This document shows, piece by piece, positions 35,419-47,491 of a stretch of 64,000 nucleotides of DNA. A program made the position numbers and the translations under genes. Position 1 is the first letter of the stretch. Each line of letters starts with the position of its first letter. Source of the DNA: Planctomycetaceae bacterium (GTDB lineage: Bacteria > Planctomycetota > Planctomycetia > Planctomycetales > Planctomycetaceae); the NCBI GenBank assembly GCA_021732995.1, contig JAKFWA010000044.1, positions 1-64,000 of the forward strand, given 5' to 3'. Under the pieces are notes generated by a model. The model worked only from the letters and a program-made list of their open reading frames with translations, ran no database searches and was not told the origin of the DNA.

Positions 35419-36168
35419 CTAACCAACAACCAGTTTCTTGGACTTCAAACGGTTGGCCAGTTCCGCAATCTTTGCTCCACAGGCCTTACGCGCTTCTGCG
35501 AAGCCCTTGGGATTGATGTTCGGACCTTTGACGTAGTCCAGAATAATCTTTTCCGCTGCAGCCAATTCGTCGCAGGCATCGGGCACTTCGGACGCCACTT
35601 CGACGGGAATCGTGGTGATGCCGTTGAGGTCTCCGTGCAGCAACTCGCCGGGGAAAATCGCCATGCCGCCGACGGTGACGGGCACGTTGATATGCAACAT
35701 GTGGCAATAGCCGTGAGCACAGATGGAACCGCTGGTGAAGCACGGGAAATCGAGCGGCGCCACTTGCTCCAGATCGCGGCCGGTTCCCGACGTGATCAGG
35801 CCCGATGCTCCGAATTGCTTGTACGTGGTGCACATGACTTCGCCGAACGTCGCGGAGGCACAGGGTTGGTCCAGGTCTTGAAAGACCAGCACCGGAGGGC
35901 CGGAGAATTGATCAAAGACTTCCAGTTGCCCGGCAATACCGGCATAAGCGTCAAGGCCCTTCGGTGGTTCCATGCTGCGGAAGGTGGTCGTCAGGGCGTA
36001 GCCAACCATCGGCGGCAGCTTGGGATAGCAGGCCATGATGCTCTTATCCATATAGCCGCGGCTGCGCGACCGCATGTCCCACAGTTCAACGACATTGCAG
36101 ATGGTGGGTGTGTCGTACTTCTTCAACTTGGCGAGAGTCTCGGGCGAGACGCCGGCATACTTCGGCAT
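35419..36168 (-). CDS. RraA/HMG-aldolase-like protein
   Basis: The 249-aa cytosolic protein has the RraA fold pattern: [11 protein letters not shown] at the start, [29 protein letters not shown] (GE...RD motif of 4-hydroxy-4-methyl-2-oxoglutarate/HMG aldolases) and [13 protein letters not shown] near the end. Proteins of this family are either metal-dependent aldolases or RNase E regulators; the intact GE...RD motif favours an aldolase. AGGA lies 8 nt before the ATG at 36168. A second RraA-like gene sits at 36992. Confidence 0.85.
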
Positions 36169-36991: not shown

Positions 36992-37654
36992 CTACAGAAC
37001 GCCATATTTCGCATAGGCATCGGCCGCGAGCATCCCGGCTTTGATGGCATCACGAGTGATGTTCTCGGCGTGGACTTTGTCCCAGGCACGCTGGATGGCT
37101 TCTGCTTCGACCTCTTGAGGCACGACGACAACCCCGTCGCCATCAGCAAACACGAGATCGCCGGGGCTGAATCGCACGCCGTCAATCTCGACCGGGACAT
37201 CGATGTCGATGACGCGCTGCCGGTTCTGACTGTCATAAATGCAGCGACCGCGAGCATAGACGGCGAAACCCATCGCGCGCATTTGCCGTGTGTCGCGTAC
37301 CGCTCCGTCGACGATTGCACCGATGCAGCCACGATTGCGAGCCGCTGTCGAAAGCAGTTCACCCCATACACCTGATCGAGTCGATCCCTGTGCTGCCGCA
37401 ATGACAATGTCATCGGGACGGCAAGAATCGACGGCCTTCAGTTCAAGTTCGTAGGGGCTCGGGTCGACGTGCGCCATGTCAGCCCACAAGGTGGTCTTGC
37501 AGCGACCAACCAGGAGCCCGTCTACCGTCTGCGGCAGCAACGACACTCGCGGCGACTGATGAGTAAACCCGAGGCCGTCGAGCGCATCGCAAACGACAGC
37601 ACAGTGCAGCTTTTCACGCATCATCGGGAGAGTGATTGATGGCGACTTGGACAT
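36992..37654 (-). CDS. RraA/HMG-aldolase-like protein, second copy
   Basis: The 220-aa protein has the motif WGELLSTAARNRGCIGAIVDGAVRDTRQM, which is closer to canonical RraA and HMG aldolases than the copy at 35419, and a conserved PGDLVFADGDGVVVVP. It probably cleaves a 4-hydroxy-2-oxoacid with a divalent metal. The pair with 35419 is only distantly similar, so it is not a recent duplication. Confidence 0.87.
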   Translation of the reverse strand: MSKSPSITLPMMREKLHCAVVCDALDGLGFTHQSPRVSLLPQTVDGLLVGRCKTTLWADMAHVDPSPYELELKAVDSCRPDDIVIAAAQGSTRSGVWGELLSTAARNRGCIGAIVDGAVRDTRQMRAMGFAVYARGRCIYDSQNRQRVIDIDVPVEIDGVRFSPGDLVFADGDGVVVVPQEVEAEAIQRAWDKVHAENITRDAIKAGMLAADAYAKYGVL

Positions 37655-37723: not shown

Positions 37724-38194
37724 TCATTGGGCGTCGAGTTCACCGACGGCTCGCAGTGCCGATTCGATGATGTCCGTTGCAACGAAGAATCCTGTTTCGA
37801 CTAACTCTTCCAACGCGTCACTGAGATTTGGAATCAAGCCTTGCCTTCTCGCTGCGACGAGAACCGCGACAGTTCCGATGACATTCAGTCCTAAGGACTT
37901 CGCGGCAGATCTCGCTCGTCGATCGTCCAGGATGATACGGTCTGCAGTGAGTTCAACGGCTAAGGCGATCGCGTCTGACTCTCCATTTCCGAGCCGACTT
38001 CTGAGCGACATCGCAAGCTGAGGCGAAGACGGATTCTTGACCAGCATCCAATTTGCCGGTTGGAGTCTGCACTCCGCCTCAACGGATGCCGGAATAGTGA
38101 CCGTGCCAAAAAGTTCGTGCAGCAATTCCAGCTTTCCCATCTGGGTGAGTGAAATCACACACGCGCTGTTCGTGATCACCTTGAGCTCAGACAT
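37724..38194 (-). CDS. PIN-domain toxin, DUF3368 type
   Basis: The 156-aa protein has the PIN-ribonuclease pattern: VITNSACVISLTQ (first acidic position), GNGESDAIALAVE (Glu/Asp), DRIILDDRRARSAAKSLGL (Asp pair). It should be the VapC-like toxin that cleaves RNA. I use the ATG at 38194, which overlaps the upstream antitoxin gene by 8 bp. UPF0175/DUF3368 is a known toxin-antitoxin pairing. Frame before that start is open but not conserved. Confidence 0.85.
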   Translation of the reverse strand: MSELKVITNSACVISLTQMGKLELLHELFGTVTIPASVEAECRLQPANWMLVKNPSSPQLAMSLRSRLGNGESDAIALAVELTADRIILDDRRARSAAKSLGLNVIGTVAVLVAARRQGLIPNLSDALEELVETGFFVATDIIESALRAVGELDAQ

Positions 38195-38408
38195 GCCGCA
38201 GGTCTTCTTCGAATTCACTACTGGTATAGTTGAAGACCGGAATGCCTTGCTTGCTGAGAAGCTCCATGAATGTCGGTTTTGTGTAGCCCGCGATCTCAGC
38301 GGCTTTACCGCATGAGACTTTTCCAATCTGGAACAGCCGAACTGCCAGTTGGAACTTGGCCTCGTTCTCAGTGAGGTCGTCTGGCAGTTCGAGTGTTACT
38401 TGGGCCAT
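38187..38408 (-). CDS. UPF0175-family antitoxin
   Basis: The 73-aa protein has the UPF0175 pattern: MAQVTLELPDDL, KFQLAVRLFQIGKVSCGKAAEIAGYTKPTFMELLSKQGIPVFNYT. The middle part is a DNA-binding helix-turn-helix-like stretch, the end binds the toxin. It begins 4 bp after the zinc alcohol dehydrogenase stop, with GGGATAGG just upstream, so it may also be transcribed from that operon. The overlap with the PIN gene couples translation. Confidence 0.86.
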   Translation of the reverse strand: MAQVTLELPDDLTENEAKFQLAVRLFQIGKVSCGKAAEIAGYTKPTFMELLSKQGIPVFNYTSSEFEEDLRHV

Positions 38409-38412
38409 GGTC

Positions 38413-39390
38413 CTATCCCTTCTTCCAACTTGGGAACTCCACCACCACTTTGAGCGCTCCATCCTTCTTTGCCAAGAAGACTTCGAAGGCTTCCTGAATC
38501 TTGGCCAGCGGGAAGCGGTGAGTCACCAGCGGCTTCATGTTGAGGCGACCTTCGCCGATCCAGCGCATTGCCAGCGGGAAATCGCGGGCGAAGTCTGGGC
38601 CGAGGCTGGTATGGACGCTGACGTTCTTCCACAGCAGGTCGCGCCAGGCGACATCGACTCGCGGTGGGGGAACTCCGAAGTACAGAATCGAACCGAACGG
38701 ACGCACGAGTTCAATGCAGAGGTCGAAGCATTGGTCGTAGTGTCCGACGGCTTCGATGATGACATCAGGCAACTGGCCGCCGAGAATTTCTTTCACACGG
38801 GCTGCGGGATTTACCTGACTGTTGTTGATCGTCGCGTTGGCACCGAACTTGTGACTCTGATCGAGCCGCGATTGCACTTTGTCGATACCGATGATGTGCC
38901 GTGCTCCGAGGTTCCGCAGGCACATGTTGAAGATCTGGCCCATCGGACCCTGACCGATGACGACCACATCTTTGTCGATCAGACTGGGCAGCTTCTTGAG
39001 TGCGTAGATCGCCGTCCCCAACGGCTGCGCGAGCATCGCTTCCTCTTCGGAGACTCGCGTGTCGATCGGAATCGCGTTGTTCTCGGAGACCACGTAACGC
39101 TCGAAGAGACCTTGTTGAGCGACTGGCACACACAAGACGCGTTCGCCGGGCTTGTAGCGTTTGCCGTTAGTGGCGATGACGGTGCCGGTCATCTCATGCA
39201 GCGAATGACCAACTTCGATTGGCCACTCGTCCGTACCTTTGAAGTACGGCAAGTCGGATCCGCAGAGACAGGTGCATTCCGGCTGAAAAATAATCTGGCC
39301 GGGACCGCTGGCGGGTGCTGCGGGAAGCACGGGTTCGGGAACGTCGACCAGTTCAATACGACACGGACCGAGGAATTTTCCGGCGAGCAT
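38413..39390 (-). CDS. Zinc-type alcohol/sugar dehydrogenase (MDR family)
   Basis: The 325-aa protein has the catalytic-zinc segment CTCLCGSDLPYFKG and EVGHSLHEMTG, NAIPIDTRV, and a Rossmann motif VVVIGQGPMGQIF. The structural-zinc four-Cys loop is missing. The second catalytic-zinc His-Glu appears as GHSLHE, a shifted form. Likely a NAD(P)-dependent polyol or sugar dehydrogenase. The ATG at 39390 fits the family start; a longer frame to 39762 looks like chance. It follows a Tat Gfo/Idh/MocA gene across 92 bp. Confidence 0.85.
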   Translation of the reverse strand: MLAGKFLGPCRIELVDVPEPVLPAAPASGPGQIIFQPECTCLCGSDLPYFKGTDEWPIEVGHSLHEMTGTVIATNGKRYKPGERVLCVPVAQQGLFERYVVSENNAIPIDTRVSEEEAMLAQPLGTAIYALKKLPSLIDKDVVVIGQGPMGQIFNMCLRNLGARHIIGIDKVQSRLDQSHKFGANATINNSQVNPAARVKEILGGQLPDVIIEAVGHYDQCFDLCIELVRPFGSILYFGVPPPRVDVAWRDLLWKNVSVHTSLGPDFARDFPLAMRWIGEGRLNMKPLVTHRFPLAKIQEAFEVFLAKKDGALKVVVEFPSWKKG

Positions 39391-41027: not shown

Positions 41028-42953
41028 ATGACTTTGGAAACACTCTTCATCGCCGCGACGTTTGGGGTTCCGCTTGTCGTGGCGGCGCTGCGGGCGGGCA
41101 CGAATCGAGCCTCATCAAACTGGATCCTCGGCTCGTTCGTGGCCAGCCTGATTGTGCTGATCGGGTTGCTGCCGCTGGAACTTGCCGCGACCGCACCTAT
41201 TTGGCCGGGTTTCCGGCTGCCCTCTGCGGATGTCCTGGCGACGGGTGTTGAGCTGGCCGTCGTCACGAGTGGGCCGTCACTGTTCGTCTGTCTCGCCGTT
41301 TTGATTTCAATGTGCGGTGTGGTTGCAAGCGGAGCCTCGTTTAACGCTGCACAACCAGAATCCAGCGAGGATCAGCGCGAAGGTGCCCGGCGTCGCGATT
41401 TGATGGTGCTCGGTCTGCAAGGCTTGATCTGTCTGGCGAGTCTAGCCACGAATTTCATTGTGGTATTGGCCGCCTGGTTTGCGATTGATGCGTTGATTGA
41501 GGCGGGACGACGACCTCGTTGTCAGCAGGCCGAAGATGAGCCTGCATCGCCGTTGGTGCCGCTGCGACTGGCTGGAATTGTCCTACTGGCTGCTTTGGGC
41601 TGGTTCGATGCGCGCTACTTCGAAACAGGAGTGGCGGAGTTGCAACTGGCGATTGGCACCGATCAGCGGGTCGACGCGGCAGTTGTCACATCCGGGCTGG
41701 TGATCGTTCTGGCAATCGCTTTGGTGATGCGTTGCGGCCAATTCCCCGCCATCGTCTGGATGCACCGGCTGGTTTCCGCAGGTAAGGCGGCTGGCGGCGA
41801 CCAGTCGCACTGCGAGTCGCTGCTTAATCCCTGGATCTGCTGTTTAGCGGTCGTGGGCTCGGCATTGGCCTTGATCGGTCGTCTGCAAGGTCTCTGGGCA
41901 TCGCATGTTGATGCCGCGTTTCTGATGGGGGCCTTGGGAGCGTTGACGGCCGTCGTGGCGGGTTTGAACGCATGCCTGGTGTCACGGGACGATGCGGGAG
42001 AGCAGGGGCTCAATTGGGTGACGGTCAGTTGGGTTTTGATTGCCACGATCGGTCAAGCCTTCATCGGAGTAGCCGCCACAAGCGATCGAGCACTCAGTTT
42101 TGGCGCCCAGACATGTGTTTGGGTGATGATCCTGTTGAGTGCATTTGCGTGGTTGTCTTCCAGCTCCTTTGCGTCTCTCAATGGGCAAAACCGAACCCGC
42201 TTAAAAATCGTTGCGATACTGGTGTGTCTGATGATTGCTTCCGGTTGCTGGTGTCAGGCGGACGCTCTGGAGATCGCTCAACAACAGGCCGTTTGGTCTC
42301 CAGAAGAGCATACAATCATGGGGTTCAACCGCCGTCGAGCTTTCCTGGGACTGTGGCTGGGCGGGATGATCGGGCAAGTTTGCGTTGGTTTTGCACTGAT
42401 GCGTGCAGTGTGCTTGTCAGGCAACAAGGCCGCACATCCAATTGCCGCACAGTCGCGCGGAATCACCTTTTGGCTGGCGGCCGGGATTTTGGCTTTAACA
42501 GTCGTGTGGTTGCTGCTGTTGCCGTTTGGACTGAAGCCACTGATGTTTGAGACCGCGCTTGGAAATTCATTGCCTCATGTCGTGATTGGCGCGGCGTTGC
42601 CGGCGGGATGGTTGGGCTGCTTGCTGGCGTGGCTGAGCTGGTCAGCGATGCCGCAATTGGTTCCCCTGGCCGAGAAACTCCTCGGTCCGTTGCTGCGGCT
42701 GGCACGGAATGGTTGGTATCTGGAATCGGTCGTCTTATTCGGTTGCCGAGTGCCGTGGCTGGGTTTGAGCCATTTTTTTGAGTTTTTTGATCGACGTTTG
42801 CTGGGTGGTGGCAAGGAAGGTGCCTGGAGTGCGCCTGCCGAGCGGGCGGCGGAATTCATGGATGAGGTGCGAGCGACGCAGGCTCGCTACTACGCGCTGG
42901 CCATCGTGGGCGCGGCGGTTGGGTTGTTGTTCGTGATTGGCTGGGGACGCTGA
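41028..42953 (+). CDS. NuoL-like membrane protein, divergent
   Basis: The 641-aa protein has about 14-16 hydrophobic helices and no signal peptide. It ends like NuoL: NGWYLESVVLFGCRVPWLGLSHFFEFFDRRLLGGG, then ATQARYYALAIVGAAVGLLFVIGWG. By eye the TM5 stretch LATNFIVVLAAWFAIDAL aligns with the NuoL GWEGVG region, so Glu144 (E. coli NuoL) becomes Phe; the TM7 Lys229 aligns with Arg in VMRCGQFPAIVWMH; His254 aligns with Asn. It begins 217 bp divergently from the Gfo/Idh/MocA gene and is followed by the NuoM-like gene. I use the ATG at 41028; a TTG at 40998 is possible. Confidence 0.72.
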   Translation: MTLETLFIAATFGVPLVVAALRAGTNRASSNWILGSFVASLIVLIGLLPLELAATAPIWPGFRLPSADVLATGVELAVVTSGPSLFVCLAVLISMCGVVASGASFNAAQPESSEDQREGARRRDLMVLGLQGLICLASLATNFIVVLAAWFAIDALIEAGRRPRCQQAEDEPASPLVPLRLAGIVLLAALGWFDARYFETGVAELQLAIGTDQRVDAAVVTSGLVIVLAIALVMRCGQFPAIVWMHRLVSAGKAAGGDQSHCESLLNPWICCLAVVGSALALIGRLQGLWASHVDAAFLMGALGALTAVVAGLNACLVSRDDAGEQGLNWVTVSWVLIATIGQAFIGVAATSDRALSFGAQTCVWVMILLSAFAWLSSSSFASLNGQNRTRLKIVAILVCLMIASGCWCQADALEIAQQQAVWSPEEHTIMGFNRRRAFLGLWLGGMIGQVCVGFALMRAVCLSGNKAAHPIAAQSRGITFWLAAGILALTVVWLLLLPFGLKPLMFETALGNSLPHVVIGAALPAGWLGCLLAWLSWSAMPQLVPLAEKLLGPLLRLARNGWYLESVVLFGCRVPWLGLSHFFEFFDRRLLGGGKEGAWSAPAERAAEFMDEVRATQARYYALAIVGAAVGLLFVIGWGR

Positions 42954-43025
42954 CTTTTGCGACGGGCATTGGAAGCTTGGGATTGAGACCGGCGGATACT
43001 GTTCTGGAAATGGAAACTGACACAC

Positions 43026-44597
43026 ATGGGTGCGGGATTCGCCCAACTACTGACGACGATCGCCGACAACGCGGTACTGCTGATGGTGGTGCTGCCGCTG
43101 CTGGGGGCGATCATCGTGCGGGCGATCGCGCGGTTTTCTCCGGAAGCCGTGAAGCCGACAGCGATCACGAACGTCGGGCTGAACCTGGCGCTCTCACTGG
43201 TCGTGCTGGCGAACTTTCAGCCGTTGGGATCGCCAGAGTATCAACCGTGGCAAATGGTGAGTTCGCTCCAATGGTTGGGTTCAGGGGGCTCATTGTCGTT
43301 GCTGGGATCTACGCTCGCGACCGGGCGAGAAGTCGGCGGACATATTGGTATTACCGTTGGAGTGGATGGAGCAGCTTTGCCTCTGCTGTTGCTACTCACC
43401 GCTGTCACGCTTGTGGCGGTGCGGTTAACCCCGAACGAATCACCGCGACTGGCGAGCCGACTCTCGCACCTGCTGGTCGCTCAAGCGGCGCTGGTGGCCA
43501 CTATCACTGCTCTGGACGCGGTGTTTCTGAGCTTTTCGGCGCTGCTGGCAGCGGGCGTGCTGACGCTGCTCATTGGTGAAAGTGGGGGAACAGATCGTCG
43601 TCCGGCAGCGCGGCGGTTTGCTCTGACTCAAGTGTCGAGCGCATTGCTGGTCGGTGTGGCGGTGGTCGGCTTGGCTATCCTGCACTGGTGGATGAGTATT
43701 CGCGTGGCCGGGGCACCACCGTTGACGTTCTACCTGCCGCGTATCGCCTTGCGACTACCGAAACTGGCCTTAGCGAATCAGGCGGCGCTGAGCGTTTGGG
43801 AAACGATGTCGTTCGTGCTGGGACTGCTGCTGTTGCTGGGGGCCTTGCTGCGAGTGCCGCTGGCACCAATGCATCACTGGTTCTATTCCACGTCGGACCA
43901 GGCGGATCGTGGAGTCACGGCCATGATCGTGGCGGGCTGGATGCCGTCCGGGCTGTTAGTCGTGACGCGATTCATTCTGCCGTTGTTCACCAAACTGGTC
44001 GCGGACCTCTCCGCGAGGTTCGTGATGTGGAGTGCATTGGCGGCGGCGTTGCTGGCGCTGTCCACACTGGCCATGACGAGTTGGCCGCGTCGTCTGGCGG
44101 CTTATGCACTGGTCGGTTCTTGCCTCGCTTTTGGTTGCTTATGGCAGGGGACCGATGCGGGCACCTCTGCGAGCTTGCTGCTGATGTTAGGGCTCAATGG
44201 GTCAGCCGCGCTCGGGCTGCTGTTGTGCTCAGGACCGGCGGGTGATGCGTCGCCTGTGGACTCTGCCGATCGCCGCTCCGATGCTCTTAACTCATGGGTT
44301 GTCGCCGGGCTCTGGGCACTGCCGTTGACGGCAACATTCTCTGGATTCTGGCTGCTGATGCAGCAAAGCTTTCAAACCGGCAGCAGCGACACAAGATGGC
44401 TGCTCGCGGCGTTTGTGATGTTGGCGTGGTCGGTTCTGGACGGACGCCGGCTGATGGTTGATGCACGGAACCCCGCCGTGAACTGGAAGACGGTCTGGCC
44501 GGTGGTGCTCGCTCTTCTGGCAATCGGAATTGCGCCGCAGTTCGTGGTGACGCGCCTGCAGACGGCGACGCTCACCGAAGCGGTGGATGTTGATTGA
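43026..44597 (+). CDS. NuoM-like membrane protein, divergent
   Basis: The 523-aa protein has about 14 hydrophobic helices and the NuoM-like core LRVPLAPMHHWFYSTSDQADRGVTAMIVAGWMPSGLLVVTRFILPLF. Aligned by eye to E. coli NuoM, Glu144 of TM5 becomes Leu (LDAVFLSFSALLAAG), Lys234 of TM7 becomes Arg, and the TM8 Lys265 position has no Lys. It follows the NuoL-like gene by 72 bp, so the two are probably one operon. No other Nuo subunit, and no DabA-like (DUF2309) partner, is near. Confidence 0.72.
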   Translation: MGAGFAQLLTTIADNAVLLMVVLPLLGAIIVRAIARFSPEAVKPTAITNVGLNLALSLVVLANFQPLGSPEYQPWQMVSSLQWLGSGGSLSLLGSTLATGREVGGHIGITVGVDGAALPLLLLLTAVTLVAVRLTPNESPRLASRLSHLLVAQAALVATITALDAVFLSFSALLAAGVLTLLIGESGGTDRRPAARRFALTQVSSALLVGVAVVGLAILHWWMSIRVAGAPPLTFYLPRIALRLPKLALANQAALSVWETMSFVLGLLLLLGALLRVPLAPMHHWFYSTSDQADRGVTAMIVAGWMPSGLLVVTRFILPLFTKLVADLSARFVMWSALAAALLALSTLAMTSWPRRLAAYALVGSCLAFGCLWQGTDAGTSASLLLMLGLNGSAALGLLLCSGPAGDASPVDSADRRSDALNSWVVAGLWALPLTATFSGFWLLMQQSFQTGSSDTRWLLAAFVMLAWSVLDGRRLMVDARNPAVNWKTVWPVVLALLAIGIAPQFVVTRLQTATLTEAVDVD

Positions 44598-44711: not shown

Positions 44712-47246
44712 CTATGGCAGGCCGTTGAGTTTTCGTACGACCCATTCGGTCGTCAGCAGGGCGAAGAAGATCAGCATTGTCAGCCAGTGGTCCCAGAGGG
44801 TTTGTTCTTCGCGCGTCTCGTTGCGGCGGTCGGGCGGCTGGATCAGGTCCGGAATGCGGCTGGCTTCATCCGGCATTACCAGTTGGCCATGCCCCGCTTC
44901 GGCGATCTTCGTGAGCAGATCGCGGTTGGCACTCAGGTCTGAGAGTTCACCAGTTGTCGGTTCCTGCACATACAGCATGGTGATGACCGGCTCAGGGCCG
45001 AGGTCCGCACCTTCTGCGACAAGCTTGAGCTTGTAGGCTCCCGAGAGAAGACCACCGACGCGACCTTCACTGACTCCGGCTCTGCCTTCGGCGAACTGCA
45101 GCGGTTGTCGTGCCAGCGGCTTTGACATCGCCGCATCGTTCTCGGCATAGACTTCGATGTAGCCTTTCAGAGCTGGGTTCTGCTGATGGAAGCGCGGTTC
45201 CCAGCGAGCCGTGATGAACGCATCCTGTCCCGAAGGCACGGGGTTTTCACGCAGATTCACGCGAACAAAAGAATTGCCCGCCGACGATTTATTCTCGGCA
45301 GCCCAACGTGCGAGTTGTCCCCAGAAACGATGGTGGTACTGATCGCCGATGCGATGCCGCCAGCGCCAAGTACTGTCGATGCCCAGCCACAAGATCTGTC
45401 CAAAGCCATAGAATTGATGCACGGCCACCGCGTTGCGACGTTCGTCGGCCAGATCGGGCTGTTCGTTCGGTTTTACGGTCGCCAGCACCGTGGTGCCGGG
45501 GCGAGCCTCGCCGAGGATGCCCCAAGTGTGACCAGGCAACTGGTTCCAGATGTTGCGGTTGTCGATCACGTCCGTGTCGAACTGGAACATCGTGTACTTT
45601 TCACCGTCGGGCGTCAGCTTCAAGCGAAAGCCACGTTCAGAAGGCGGACGTTCGGCAGTCGCCGTCGTCAGATCAACGATCCGCAAATCCTTCATCGGAA
45701 ACATGCGACCCAGCGCGGCCGACTTGTGGTTCTTGGGAAACTCATTCTTGCCCGCCATGATGACCAGCGTGCCGCCTTCATTCCTGACAAAGTTTTCGAC
45801 CTGATCCCAGATCGCATCCGTGAACTGCGTAGGAGCGACGTCTCCAATGACGATCAAATCCAGGTTGTTGAAGAGCGTCGGGCCTGCCGGTTGGGCGAGC
45901 GCATTGGTGATCGTGCGCGGGAAGAACGTCTCAGGCAGGATCTTCAGAAATGGTTGCTCGAAGACGACCCGCTTCAATTCAACCCGTTCATCGCGAGCGT
46001 ACGCGTTGTTGATGAAGCGGAATTCCCAGCGAGCCTCGTTCTCAGCCAAAAAGACTCGGGCCTTGTCGTCGACAATCTGCAACGAGAACGACCGCTGGTT
46101 GTTGTCGTCGCGCGTTTCGTCCGGGCGAGCGGCTGTGCGAATCGTATAGTTGTGCCGTCCCAGCTCGGGTGCTTTCAGCGTGAATTCAACATCCAGCGTC
46201 GCATGCTGGCTGCCGGCCGGAATGTGCAGCGTCTTCGTTTCCGGTTCGCCCGCAGGGTTCTCCAGCGTGACGGCCAGGTCCTGATTCTCGTAACCGTCCG
46301 CGGTGATCTTGGCTCGCACGACCGGCGAATCACTCTTGAACGCCGTTTGCGGTGCATCCACCGTCAGAATTGCGATGTCACGCGGACGCCGTTCTGACCC
46401 GATCATGAGCGGAAAGACCGGCACGTTGATGGAACCTAAACGACCGGCAATGGGCACAGGATCGCGGTCTGTGTTGTGTCGACCGTCCGAAACCAGCACC
46501 GCGCCGATGACCTGAGTGGCTGTGTCGGCGGATGAGACATCCAGAGCGACACCCAAATCGGATTGCTTCACCGCGATGTTGGCTGGCGGATCGGCGAGGT
46601 CCTTGAACACGCTCGCGTCTATCGGCTCGATCTGACCACCGAAGAGCTTGAGTTCCACGTTCCCAACCTTGCCGAGCTGGTCCAGCAGTGGATTGGAACC
46701 CGCCGTCAGCAGTCGCTTGACGATTTCGCGCCGCGGCAACTGCCGGACCTGCTCAAGAATCTGCTCGACGTTGTCTTTGCGAAAGGCGGTCAGTTCCTGC
46801 CGTTTGGCATCGGTGGTGGCTTCGGCATCGCTTACCCAGACAGGTTCTTTGCCAGCTTCGTACGCCTTGATCCAGTCAGCGATCTGCGCATCGGTCTGAC
46901 GGTTGCCGATCATCTCCAGCGCGCGAGCCCACCGCAGGAGCTCCGCCTTCGATGCGAAGCGGTCGGGCGTGTTCATGCTCTCGGATAGATCGACAGCAAC
47001 GACGATCCGGCCCGCTTTGCTTTTGTCGAACGTCCACGAACTGACCGGCTCAAGGAACGTGATGAAGAGTGCGACGACAACCGCCAGACGGAGGAACAGG
47101 AGAAACATGCCGACTGGTTTGGAGACCAGTTGGCGTTCGTACTTCAGCAACGTGATGATCAGACCCGCCGCCACGAGACAACACAGTGTCGTGAACCAGA
47201 ACCACGGTGAGTTCGTAAGACCTTGAAAAATGAGGTCGCGTTGCAT
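44712..47246 (-). CDS. Large membrane-anchored VWA-domain protein, second
   Basis: The 844-aa protein has two N-terminal membrane helices (about 10-30 and 42-64), a VWA domain with intact DLSES (DxSxS) at about residue 86, a beta-rich middle with ARVFLAENEARWEFRFINNAYARD, an amidotransferase-like part (NEGGTLVIMAGKNEFPKNH) and a C-terminal hydrophobic segment (TLWDHWLTMLIFFALLTTEWVVRKL). Its plan is the same as 4706-7195, but sequence identity is low by eye. The start is the ATG at 47246; longer frame to 47318 overlaps the divergent methyltransferase. Function is unknown. Confidence 0.75.
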   Translation of the reverse strand: MQRDLIFQGLTNSPWFWFTTLCCLVAAGLIITLLKYERQLVSKPVGMFLLFLRLAVVVALFITFLEPVSSWTFDKSKAGRIVVAVDLSESMNTPDRFASKAELLRWARALEMIGNRQTDAQIADWIKAYEAGKEPVWVSDAEATTDAKRQELTAFRKDNVEQILEQVRQLPRREIVKRLLTAGSNPLLDQLGKVGNVELKLFGGQIEPIDASVFKDLADPPANIAVKQSDLGVALDVSSADTATQVIGAVLVSDGRHNTDRDPVPIAGRLGSINVPVFPLMIGSERRPRDIAILTVDAPQTAFKSDSPVVRAKITADGYENQDLAVTLENPAGEPETKTLHIPAGSQHATLDVEFTLKAPELGRHNYTIRTAARPDETRDDNNQRSFSLQIVDDKARVFLAENEARWEFRFINNAYARDERVELKRVVFEQPFLKILPETFFPRTITNALAQPAGPTLFNNLDLIVIGDVAPTQFTDAIWDQVENFVRNEGGTLVIMAGKNEFPKNHKSAALGRMFPMKDLRIVDLTTATAERPPSERGFRLKLTPDGEKYTMFQFDTDVIDNRNIWNQLPGHTWGILGEARPGTTVLATVKPNEQPDLADERRNAVAVHQFYGFGQILWLGIDSTWRWRHRIGDQYHHRFWGQLARWAAENKSSAGNSFVRVNLRENPVPSGQDAFITARWEPRFHQQNPALKGYIEVYAENDAAMSKPLARQPLQFAEGRAGVSEGRVGGLLSGAYKLKLVAEGADLGPEPVITMLYVQEPTTGELSDLSANRDLLTKIAEAGHGQLVMPDEASRIPDLIQPPDRRNETREEQTLWDHWLTMLIFFALLTTEWVVRKLNGLP

Positions 47247-47491
47247 GAGCGAGCGGGATCCAGAAGTCGAGACGGGTGAACCGAAAGGCTGATGGGTCAG
47301 AGGCCGAGTGGCAAGCACGGAACCGCCAAGTGAAATCGTTCATCCGCGACTTTTCTGTCGGAGGATTCCGGAGATTCCTGCCCGCGACAGTCCGCATTCA
47401 GACTCAGATAACTATGATGGGCAGTGTTCTGTCGCTGCTGAATGCTGACGACACATTGTTAGAGAGTGCGTTTAGAGGTTGCTTGCTGTTC

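Follow-up and report, generated by a model that had tools for sequence, protein, structure and literature searches.

NuoL, NuoM and NuoN (ND5, ND4 and ND2) are the antiporter-like subunits of the membrane arm of respiratory complex I. Antiporter-like proteins of the L type and of the M/N type are also found without a redox arm in the Mrp antiporter (MrpA and MrpD). To our knowledge, wherever complex I modules have been reused (Mrp, Dab and hydrogenases), the ion path is intact. According to PMC11496545, isolated Thermus antiporter modules conduct protons, and the single substitutions K385I in Nqo12 and K235M or E377Q in Nqo13 block this conduction, while a Glu to Gln exchange at the ion pair of transmembrane helix (TM) 5 speeds it. 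DabB2, as described in PMC13144422, functions with Ile (Ile151) at the TM5 Glu site and retains the path residues. Here, we describe two adjacent genes of a Planctomycetaceae bacterium that encode NuoL- and NuoM-like proteins, P0001 and P0002, in which most of the channel residues are replaced. The genes lie in a stretch of 64,000 nucleotides of contig JAKFWA010000044.1 (assembly GCA_021732995.1), referred to below as the window. As the first-pass annotation of the window had indicated, relatives of NuoL and NuoM stand side by side at this locus; both frames are open and are separated by 72 bases.

41028-42953, plus strand: P0001, NuoL-like protein of 641 residues, its C-terminal part the most NuoL-like
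43026-44597, plus strand: P0002, NuoM-like protein of 523 residues, with a predicted NuoM/ND4 fold

P0001 starts with ATG at 41028, and an alternative TTG start is located 30 bases upstream. We propose, with a probability of about one half, that P0001 and P0002 are paralogues that have diverged from NuoL and NuoM and that, together with a NuoN-like protein encoded elsewhere in the genome (P0003), they are the remnant of a duplicated complex I membrane arm, kept as a non-conducting L-M-N assembly.

Descent and fold of the two proteins

A tree of antiporter-like proteins was built from 81 of 84 rows, with three sequences shorter than 350 residues omitted. P0001 is placed within the NuoL fork (32 rows, support 99) and P0002 within the NuoM fork (32 rows, support 97). 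The clades of P0001 and P0002 in this tree, and that of P0003 in a separate NuoN tree, each have a support of 100. The three proteins thus belong by descent to the NuoL, NuoM and NuoN lineages, yet they do not pass the residue tests for these families. P0001 matches no Pfam or NCBIfam model above the cut-off. P0002 reaches 21.5 bits against PF00361, exactly the Pfam cut-off, and 69.3 bits (E 2.6e-19) against the NuoM model TIGR01972, for which the cut-off is 263.8.

Predicted as a single protein with AlphaFold, P0002 (predicted local distance difference test, pLDDT, 77.6; predicted template modelling score 0.83) adopts the NuoM/ND4 fold, with VIA Z up to 39.1, and Foldseek concurs. Compared with 3rko_C, a chain of approximately NuoM length from the E. 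coli membrane domain, the model gives a VIA Z of 38.5 and a root-mean-square deviation of 3.1 over 460 residues.

Replacement of the channel residues

Residues were mapped in MAFFT alignments that combined E. coli NuoL and NuoM with intermediates and with further copies from planctomycetes, and the TM labels of the L-like proteins were carried over from E. coli by alignment. The codons of four positions are as follows:

41487-41489, plus strand: Asp154 of P0001, in TM5, three residues past the lost NuoL Glu144 site
41730-41732, plus strand: Arg235 of P0001, NuoL Lys229 (TM7) site; all 10 clade rows and 20 of the 21 divergent L rows have Arg
43851-43853, plus strand: Arg276 of P0002, NuoM Lys234 (TM7) site; all 10 clade rows have Arg
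43944-43946, plus strand: Pro307 of P0002, NuoM Lys265 (TM8) site; all 10 clade rows have Pro

The NuoL residues replaced in P0001 are E144 (F151), D178 (G183), K229 (R235), H254 (C271), K305 (G324), H334 (T362), H338 (V366), K342 (L370), K399 (Q410) and D400 (A411), where single letters in the weakly aligned TM9-14 part are uncertain. P0001 accordingly fails the test of the NuoL proton path, with R, G, T, V, L, Q and A at the sites of K229, K305, H334, H338, K342, K399 and D400. Replaced in P0002 are NuoM E144 (L173), K173 (R197), K234 (R276), K265 (P307), H322 (G364), H348 (L390) and E407 (F441); H241 is retained as H283. P0002 therefore fails the NuoM test of Glu in TM5, Lys in TM7, Lys in TM8 and Glu in TM12, having L173, R276, P307 and F441 at these sites.

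These alignments place replacements, and no intact Glu or Lys, at the channel positions that the first-pass annotation had read by eye, and agree with it on NuoL Glu144 to Phe and Lys229 to Arg, on NuoM Glu144 to Leu and Lys234 to Arg, and on the absence of Lys at NuoM position 265. The change of NuoL His254 to Asn is not reproduced: the site aligns with Cys, a letter made unsure by an insertion, and no His is found. The same annotation had taken the Lys to Arg changes at the TM7 site of both proteins as a sign that decay is not random. Decay is indeed opposed by the selection analysis below, but the TM7 argument is weak. NuoN on contig C26 of the same genome also has Arg at its TM7 site, the other six NuoN positions checked being intact, and a Lys to Arg change at TM7 alone therefore says little.

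The stronger argument comes from losses on the conduction path, at NuoL K342 and K399 and at NuoM K265 and E407. By our own homology mapping, the sites at which substitution blocks the Thermus modules would correspond to NuoL K399, NuoM K265 and NuoM E407, all of which appear lost in P0001 and P0002. Given these losses, and Trp at the NuoN K395 site of P0003, protons are unlikely to be conducted along the known path. Loss of the TM5 Glu is not diagnostic, because DabB2 works with Ile at this site and the Glu to Gln exchange speeds conduction in the modules, as reported in PMC13144422 and PMC11496545.

One channel lysine site per subunit is kept as Arg: that of TM7 in the L-like (10 of 10 rows) and M-like proteins (10 of 10), and that of TM8 in the N-like proteins (11 of 11). 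The conservation is more than chance, with just one of 613 columns more conserved than the NuoL TM7 Arg column among the 21 divergent L rows. An acid is present at the Asp154 position in all nine L-clade rows that have a letter there (eight Asp, one Glu; the tenth row is a fragment), and the alignment suggests that the TM5 acid of the clade may have shifted by one helical turn. In the P0002 model, helix 252-276 ends at Arg276 and is still broken there, the next helix starting at 284, and residues 413-451, which hold the TM12 motif, form one helix. Across a wider set of 22 divergent M rows, K265 is kept in nine and E407 in nine.

A third member encoded elsewhere

The first-pass annotation had described a two-gene module. 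This description does not hold, as a NuoN-like gene is found elsewhere in all 10 genomes that carry the pair, and the L- and M-like genes are non-adjacent in six of them. In the genome of the window, a profile built from NuoN rows identified P0003, a degenerate NuoN of 429 residues, on the minus strand of contig C56 (31247-32533). It matches the NCBIfam NuoN models at E 2.2e-10, under the cut-off, and no Pfam family up to E 0.1; its place in the genome matched PF00361 at 22.9 bits in the genome search. Relative to the NuoN models, P0003 starts about 85 residues late. All 11 N-like rows have Arg at the NuoN K247 (TM8) site and have lost E133, K217 and K395.

The L clade occurs in 10 of the 170 genomes of the order, where its lowest score is 278 bits, against 95.9 for the next genome. 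The M clade occupies the identical 10 (lowest 641 bits, next 219). The N-like gene is present in all of these and in G123, a genome that is 59% complete and in which 34 residues of the L gene are also found. Membership of the N-like clade (11 rows, support 100/99, against 30 other N rows) is based on the tree and not on the search score, the sequences being too different: some N genes outside the clade outscore two of its members against P0003. In 392 genomes drawn from the phylum, with at most three candidates per genome scored, no further match reached the scores of the P0002 clade, and the best score outside the family was 119.8 bits.

The L- and M-like genes are adjacent in G000, G006, G077 and G043, and apart in G026 and five genomes of genus g31, where apart mainly means on different contigs, most genomes being drafts; in G093 the two genes are about 256 kb apart on one contig. 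No N-like gene was found next to L or M in the genomes with clade members.

The C-terminal part of the L-like protein

One segment of P0001 is retained throughout its clade:

42723-42878, plus strand: residues 566-617 of P0001, present in nine of nine rows, including a natural relative of 385 residues without the middle of the protein

From its position, we take this segment to be the counterpart of the NuoL lateral helix region. The sequence of the region is kept, and the structure model of P0001 (pLDDT 46.9) is too poor to display a helix. Over nine L rows, 11 invariant residues fall in the TM4-TM8 part and nine between the lateral-helix region and the end of the protein. The TM9-14 part has three and the lowest conservation, partly since deletions count against it. 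Two short forms of the L-like protein (385 residues in G006 and 465 in G026) leave positions 317-541 and 402-520 of a 617-position model unmatched and keep the C-terminal part. Moreover, P0001 matches the canonical NuoL of G033, G073, G107, G041 and G049 solely via residues 514-639. This pattern speaks for the L-like protein acting as a brace.

NuoL-like proteins with large internal deletions and a retained C-terminal part are encoded at L066:11101-12255 and L068:10425-11819. In G093, the NuoL-like gene (L063:9477-11322) is spread over two frames that overlap, by a frameshift or an assembly error.

A proposed non-conducting assembly

In the mechanism that we propose, the membrane arm would have been duplicated; in relatives no hydrophilic (NADH- and quinone-reacting) genes are recognised next to it. 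P0001, P0002 and P0003 would form a row in the membrane, held together by the lateral helix at the C-terminus of the L-like protein. With the central and exit residues gone, the assembly would no longer pass protons along the path used in complex I. The remaining Arg of each subunit would hold the fold together, in the L-like protein perhaps paired with the relocated TM5 Asp, and the whole would act as a structural membrane scaffold or as a docking and regulatory platform for some partner. The first-pass annotation had left the choice between a modified ion-translocating module and a scaffold; a non-conducting role is now favoured, and ion translocation looks less likely.

Several observations weigh against this reading. 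The loss of the path is not uniform, since NuoL R175 and D303 are retained in P0001 (R180 and D322) and NuoM E407 remains Glu in five of the 10 M-clade rows, all from g31. A strictly retained buried Arg is not obviously needed by a pure scaffold and may hint at an active role. The predicted model of P0001, from four alignment rows, gives no usable shape, and no partner gene was found. Finally, the agreement of the L, M and N distance matrices (Mantel r 0.94-0.96 over nine genomes, leaving out G093 with its L in two frames) is expected from shared species history alone and is no evidence that the three proteins touch.

Some of these points would be explained if the module still moved an ion by a changed path, with the TM7 or TM8 Arg and the relocated TM5 acid as a new ion pair and with water or other residues in place of the lysines that were lost. 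Such a path could account for the arginine kept in every row of the three clades, for the acid found three residues on in all L rows with a letter, for E407 in half of the M rows and for the helix break that persists after Arg276, and the working DabB2 without a TM5 Glu (PMC13144422) is a precedent. We nevertheless consider it unlikely: the L clade has no conserved base at the sites of NuoL K305, H334, H338, K342 and K399, the middle of the protein is missing from two naturally occurring L variants, NuoM K265 is Pro in all 10 M-clade rows, and single losses at such sites block conduction according to PMC11496545.

Relation to the canonical nuo clusters

The proteins of the proposed assembly might instead join canonical complex I as extra or alternative distal subunits, altering pumping or assembly. 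Retention of the lateral-helix region would fit such a role, as would the NuoH (PF00146) match found in nine of the 10 genomes (two in G000 and in G026, three, unresolved, in G116 and one in each of the other six). G093, which is 91% complete, has no NuoH match, however, and the genome of the window holds two other clusters that are each equipped with their own L, M and N. Contig C26 carries NuoB, C, D, E, G and H-N, and C111 (15.8 kb; L099) a second H-J-K-L-M-N set in which the channel residues of L and M are intact and beside which no hydrophilic nuo gene was recognised on the contig. The pair in the window is therefore not part of a normal nuo operon split elsewhere, and a role as additional complex I subunits appears quite improbable. 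Two intact nuo types, like those of C26 and C111, seem to be present in the order.

Selective constraint

Ratios of nonsynonymous to synonymous substitution rates (dN/dS) were calculated by the Nei-Gojobori method with our own script and are rough, many dS values exceeding 1; the L gene of G093, lying in two frames, was excluded. The ratios are 0.115-0.209 for the M-like genes (10 g31 pairs), 0.226-0.277 for the L-like genes (six g31 pairs) and 0.153-0.313 for the N-like genes (15 pairs). One pair each from a second genus, g43, gave 0.344 (L), 0.258 (M) and 0.265 (N). As a yardstick, neighbouring genes in g31 have ratios of 0.130-0.229 (PSCyt1 family, 10 pairs), 0.062-0.105 (cyclophilin, six pairs) and 0.097-0.116 (phosphatase-like, three pairs). 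Relative to these neighbours, constraint is looser on L, about like that of PSCyt1 on M, and between the two on N. All three genes are thus under purifying selection.

Slowly decaying leftovers without function would be expected to show the very long branches seen here, and the late start of P0003, the two shortened L variants and the split L frame of G093 point in the same direction. With dN/dS well under 1 in every pair examined, new residues invariant across the clades (e.g. Arg276 and Pro307), and all three genes retained in 10 of 10 genomes, often non-adjacent, we regard decay as very unlikely. A pair of Dab-type subunits of an inorganic carbon pump, although of the same superfamily and with a DabA gene followed by two antiporter-like genes in the same genome, is rejected as hardly credible, as no DabA (PF10070) is found among the four flanking genes scanned, DabA being on contig C85, and the tree separates P0001 and P0002 from the C85 genes. 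That C85 locus (L097:5093-11178; antiporter-like proteins of 447 and 503 residues) may encode an inorganic carbon pump that has two membrane subunits.

A wider series of reduced nuo clusters

Four genomes of the same family contain A-H-J-K-L-M-N clusters, which we call headless:

L078:5093-12596, headless cluster (genus g24)
L213:6900-14665, headless cluster (genus g24)
L148:1909-9547, headless cluster (genus g24)
L080:5460-13243, headless cluster (G001)

Their open reading frames (ORFs) include no relatives of C26 NuoB, C, D, E, G or I at E 0.01, and in other nuo loci the same search with C26 queries did retrieve relatives of E, G and I. A 'NuoD' match upstream of the L078 cluster proved to be a DUF58 protein. 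The H, J and K proteins of L148 exceed the Pfam cut-offs (28, 44.2 and 30.8 bits); those of L080 match no Pfam family and were called by profiles that include them. NuoA in the headless clusters was called by position, size and a self-including profile only. L078 and L080 lie outside the clade of P0001 and P0002, and their M proteins retain NuoM K265.

Further types are a J-K-L-M-N cluster (L073), K-L-M with N elsewhere (G010), L-M-N clusters in g56 (L075, L076, L088, L089, L143, L151 and L160, with N elsewhere in G102 and G147), and G148, in which J-K-L, M and N are at three places. A search for degenerate H or J in the 10 pair-carrying genomes gave matches at E <0.001 only in G000 (on C26) and G026, a search that very diverged A, H, J and K could escape. 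Some genomes of the wider series have an intact NuoH as well, and the series can therefore not be put down simply to a sole copy decaying. Independent decay of several nuo copies, with long branches drawing them together, could be an alternative to a single duplication for the wider series.

Neighbourhood of the genes

The first-pass annotation had seen no other Nuo gene near the pair. This stands: Pfam scans of the four flanking genes gave no nuo family, and profiles run against all window ORFs of at least 70 residues detected no H, J, K, L, M, N or A beyond the pair, three weak extra matches (E 0.09-0.4) being taken as chance. Likewise, no window ORF is a relative of the C26 hydrophilic proteins at E 0.01, NuoF not being among the queries. 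A comparison of the neighbourhoods in the genomes carrying the pair brought up no telling conserved neighbour across genera.

Three candidate links to neighbouring genes were weighed. A functional link to those next to the M gene in g31 was rejected: they belong to the PSCyt1/DUF1553 and DUF1501 families, with relatives also in other loci. The gene at 44712-47318 of the window is weakly linked, having 24-28% identity to its matches and a paralogue in the same window. The one family that recurs near N-like genes of two genera (in G026, G077 and G043) comprises sulfatases, a very large family in planctomycetes, and the recurrence is taken as chance.

Some other genes in these regions are recorded here. 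A small gene directly after the NuoL-like gene (L065:10782-11279) has relatives after it in three g31 genomes and no Pfam match. Within the window, the minus strand encodes the following:

35419-36168 and 36992-37654, minus strand: two diverged RraA-like genes close together
37724-38462, minus strand: a UPF0175 protein followed by a DUF3368/PIN-like protein, presumably a toxin-antitoxin pair

Comparison with known systems

The clusters can be arranged in a natural series, from one without the redox arm to one without A, H, J and K, and then to one without linkage and most proton residues, with L, M and N still under selection. Such a series would help to separate the residues needed for pumping from those needed for fold and assembly. 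It also implies that a planctomycete annotation as 'NuoM' or 'proton-conducting transporter' need not mean a proton pump. More tentatively, a duplicated complex I membrane arm that had lost the redox arm may have become, in one planctomycete family, a non-pumping L-M-N assembly with scattered genes, in which one buried Arg per subunit is retained instead of the proton path. This would represent a new class of machine derived from complex I, serving a structural or signalling purpose. No report of such planctomycete genes was found in the open-licence literature.

With NuoL, NuoM and NuoN of complex I, the set shares its clades, the L-M gene order, the predicted NuoM fold of P0002 and the C-terminal region of L. 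In contrast to complex I, most channel lysines, glutamates and histidines are lost, one lysine site per subunit is Arg, no hydrophilic genes are recognised beside the pair, and the N-like gene is located elsewhere. DabB2 of the DAB2 inorganic carbon complex, as described in PMC13144422, is likewise a NuoL relative outside complex I with its TM5 Glu replaced, but it keeps the proton path and works with DabA, neither of which is found here. With the Mrp antiporter, the set shares L-type and M/N-type antiporter-like proteins that stand without a redox arm; the four flanking genes that were scanned include no small Mrp subunit. The headless clusters resemble the present set in having divergent L, M and N and no hydrophilic nuo gene recognised nearby, whereas their genes are still clustered and accompanied by A-, H-, J- and K-like genes.

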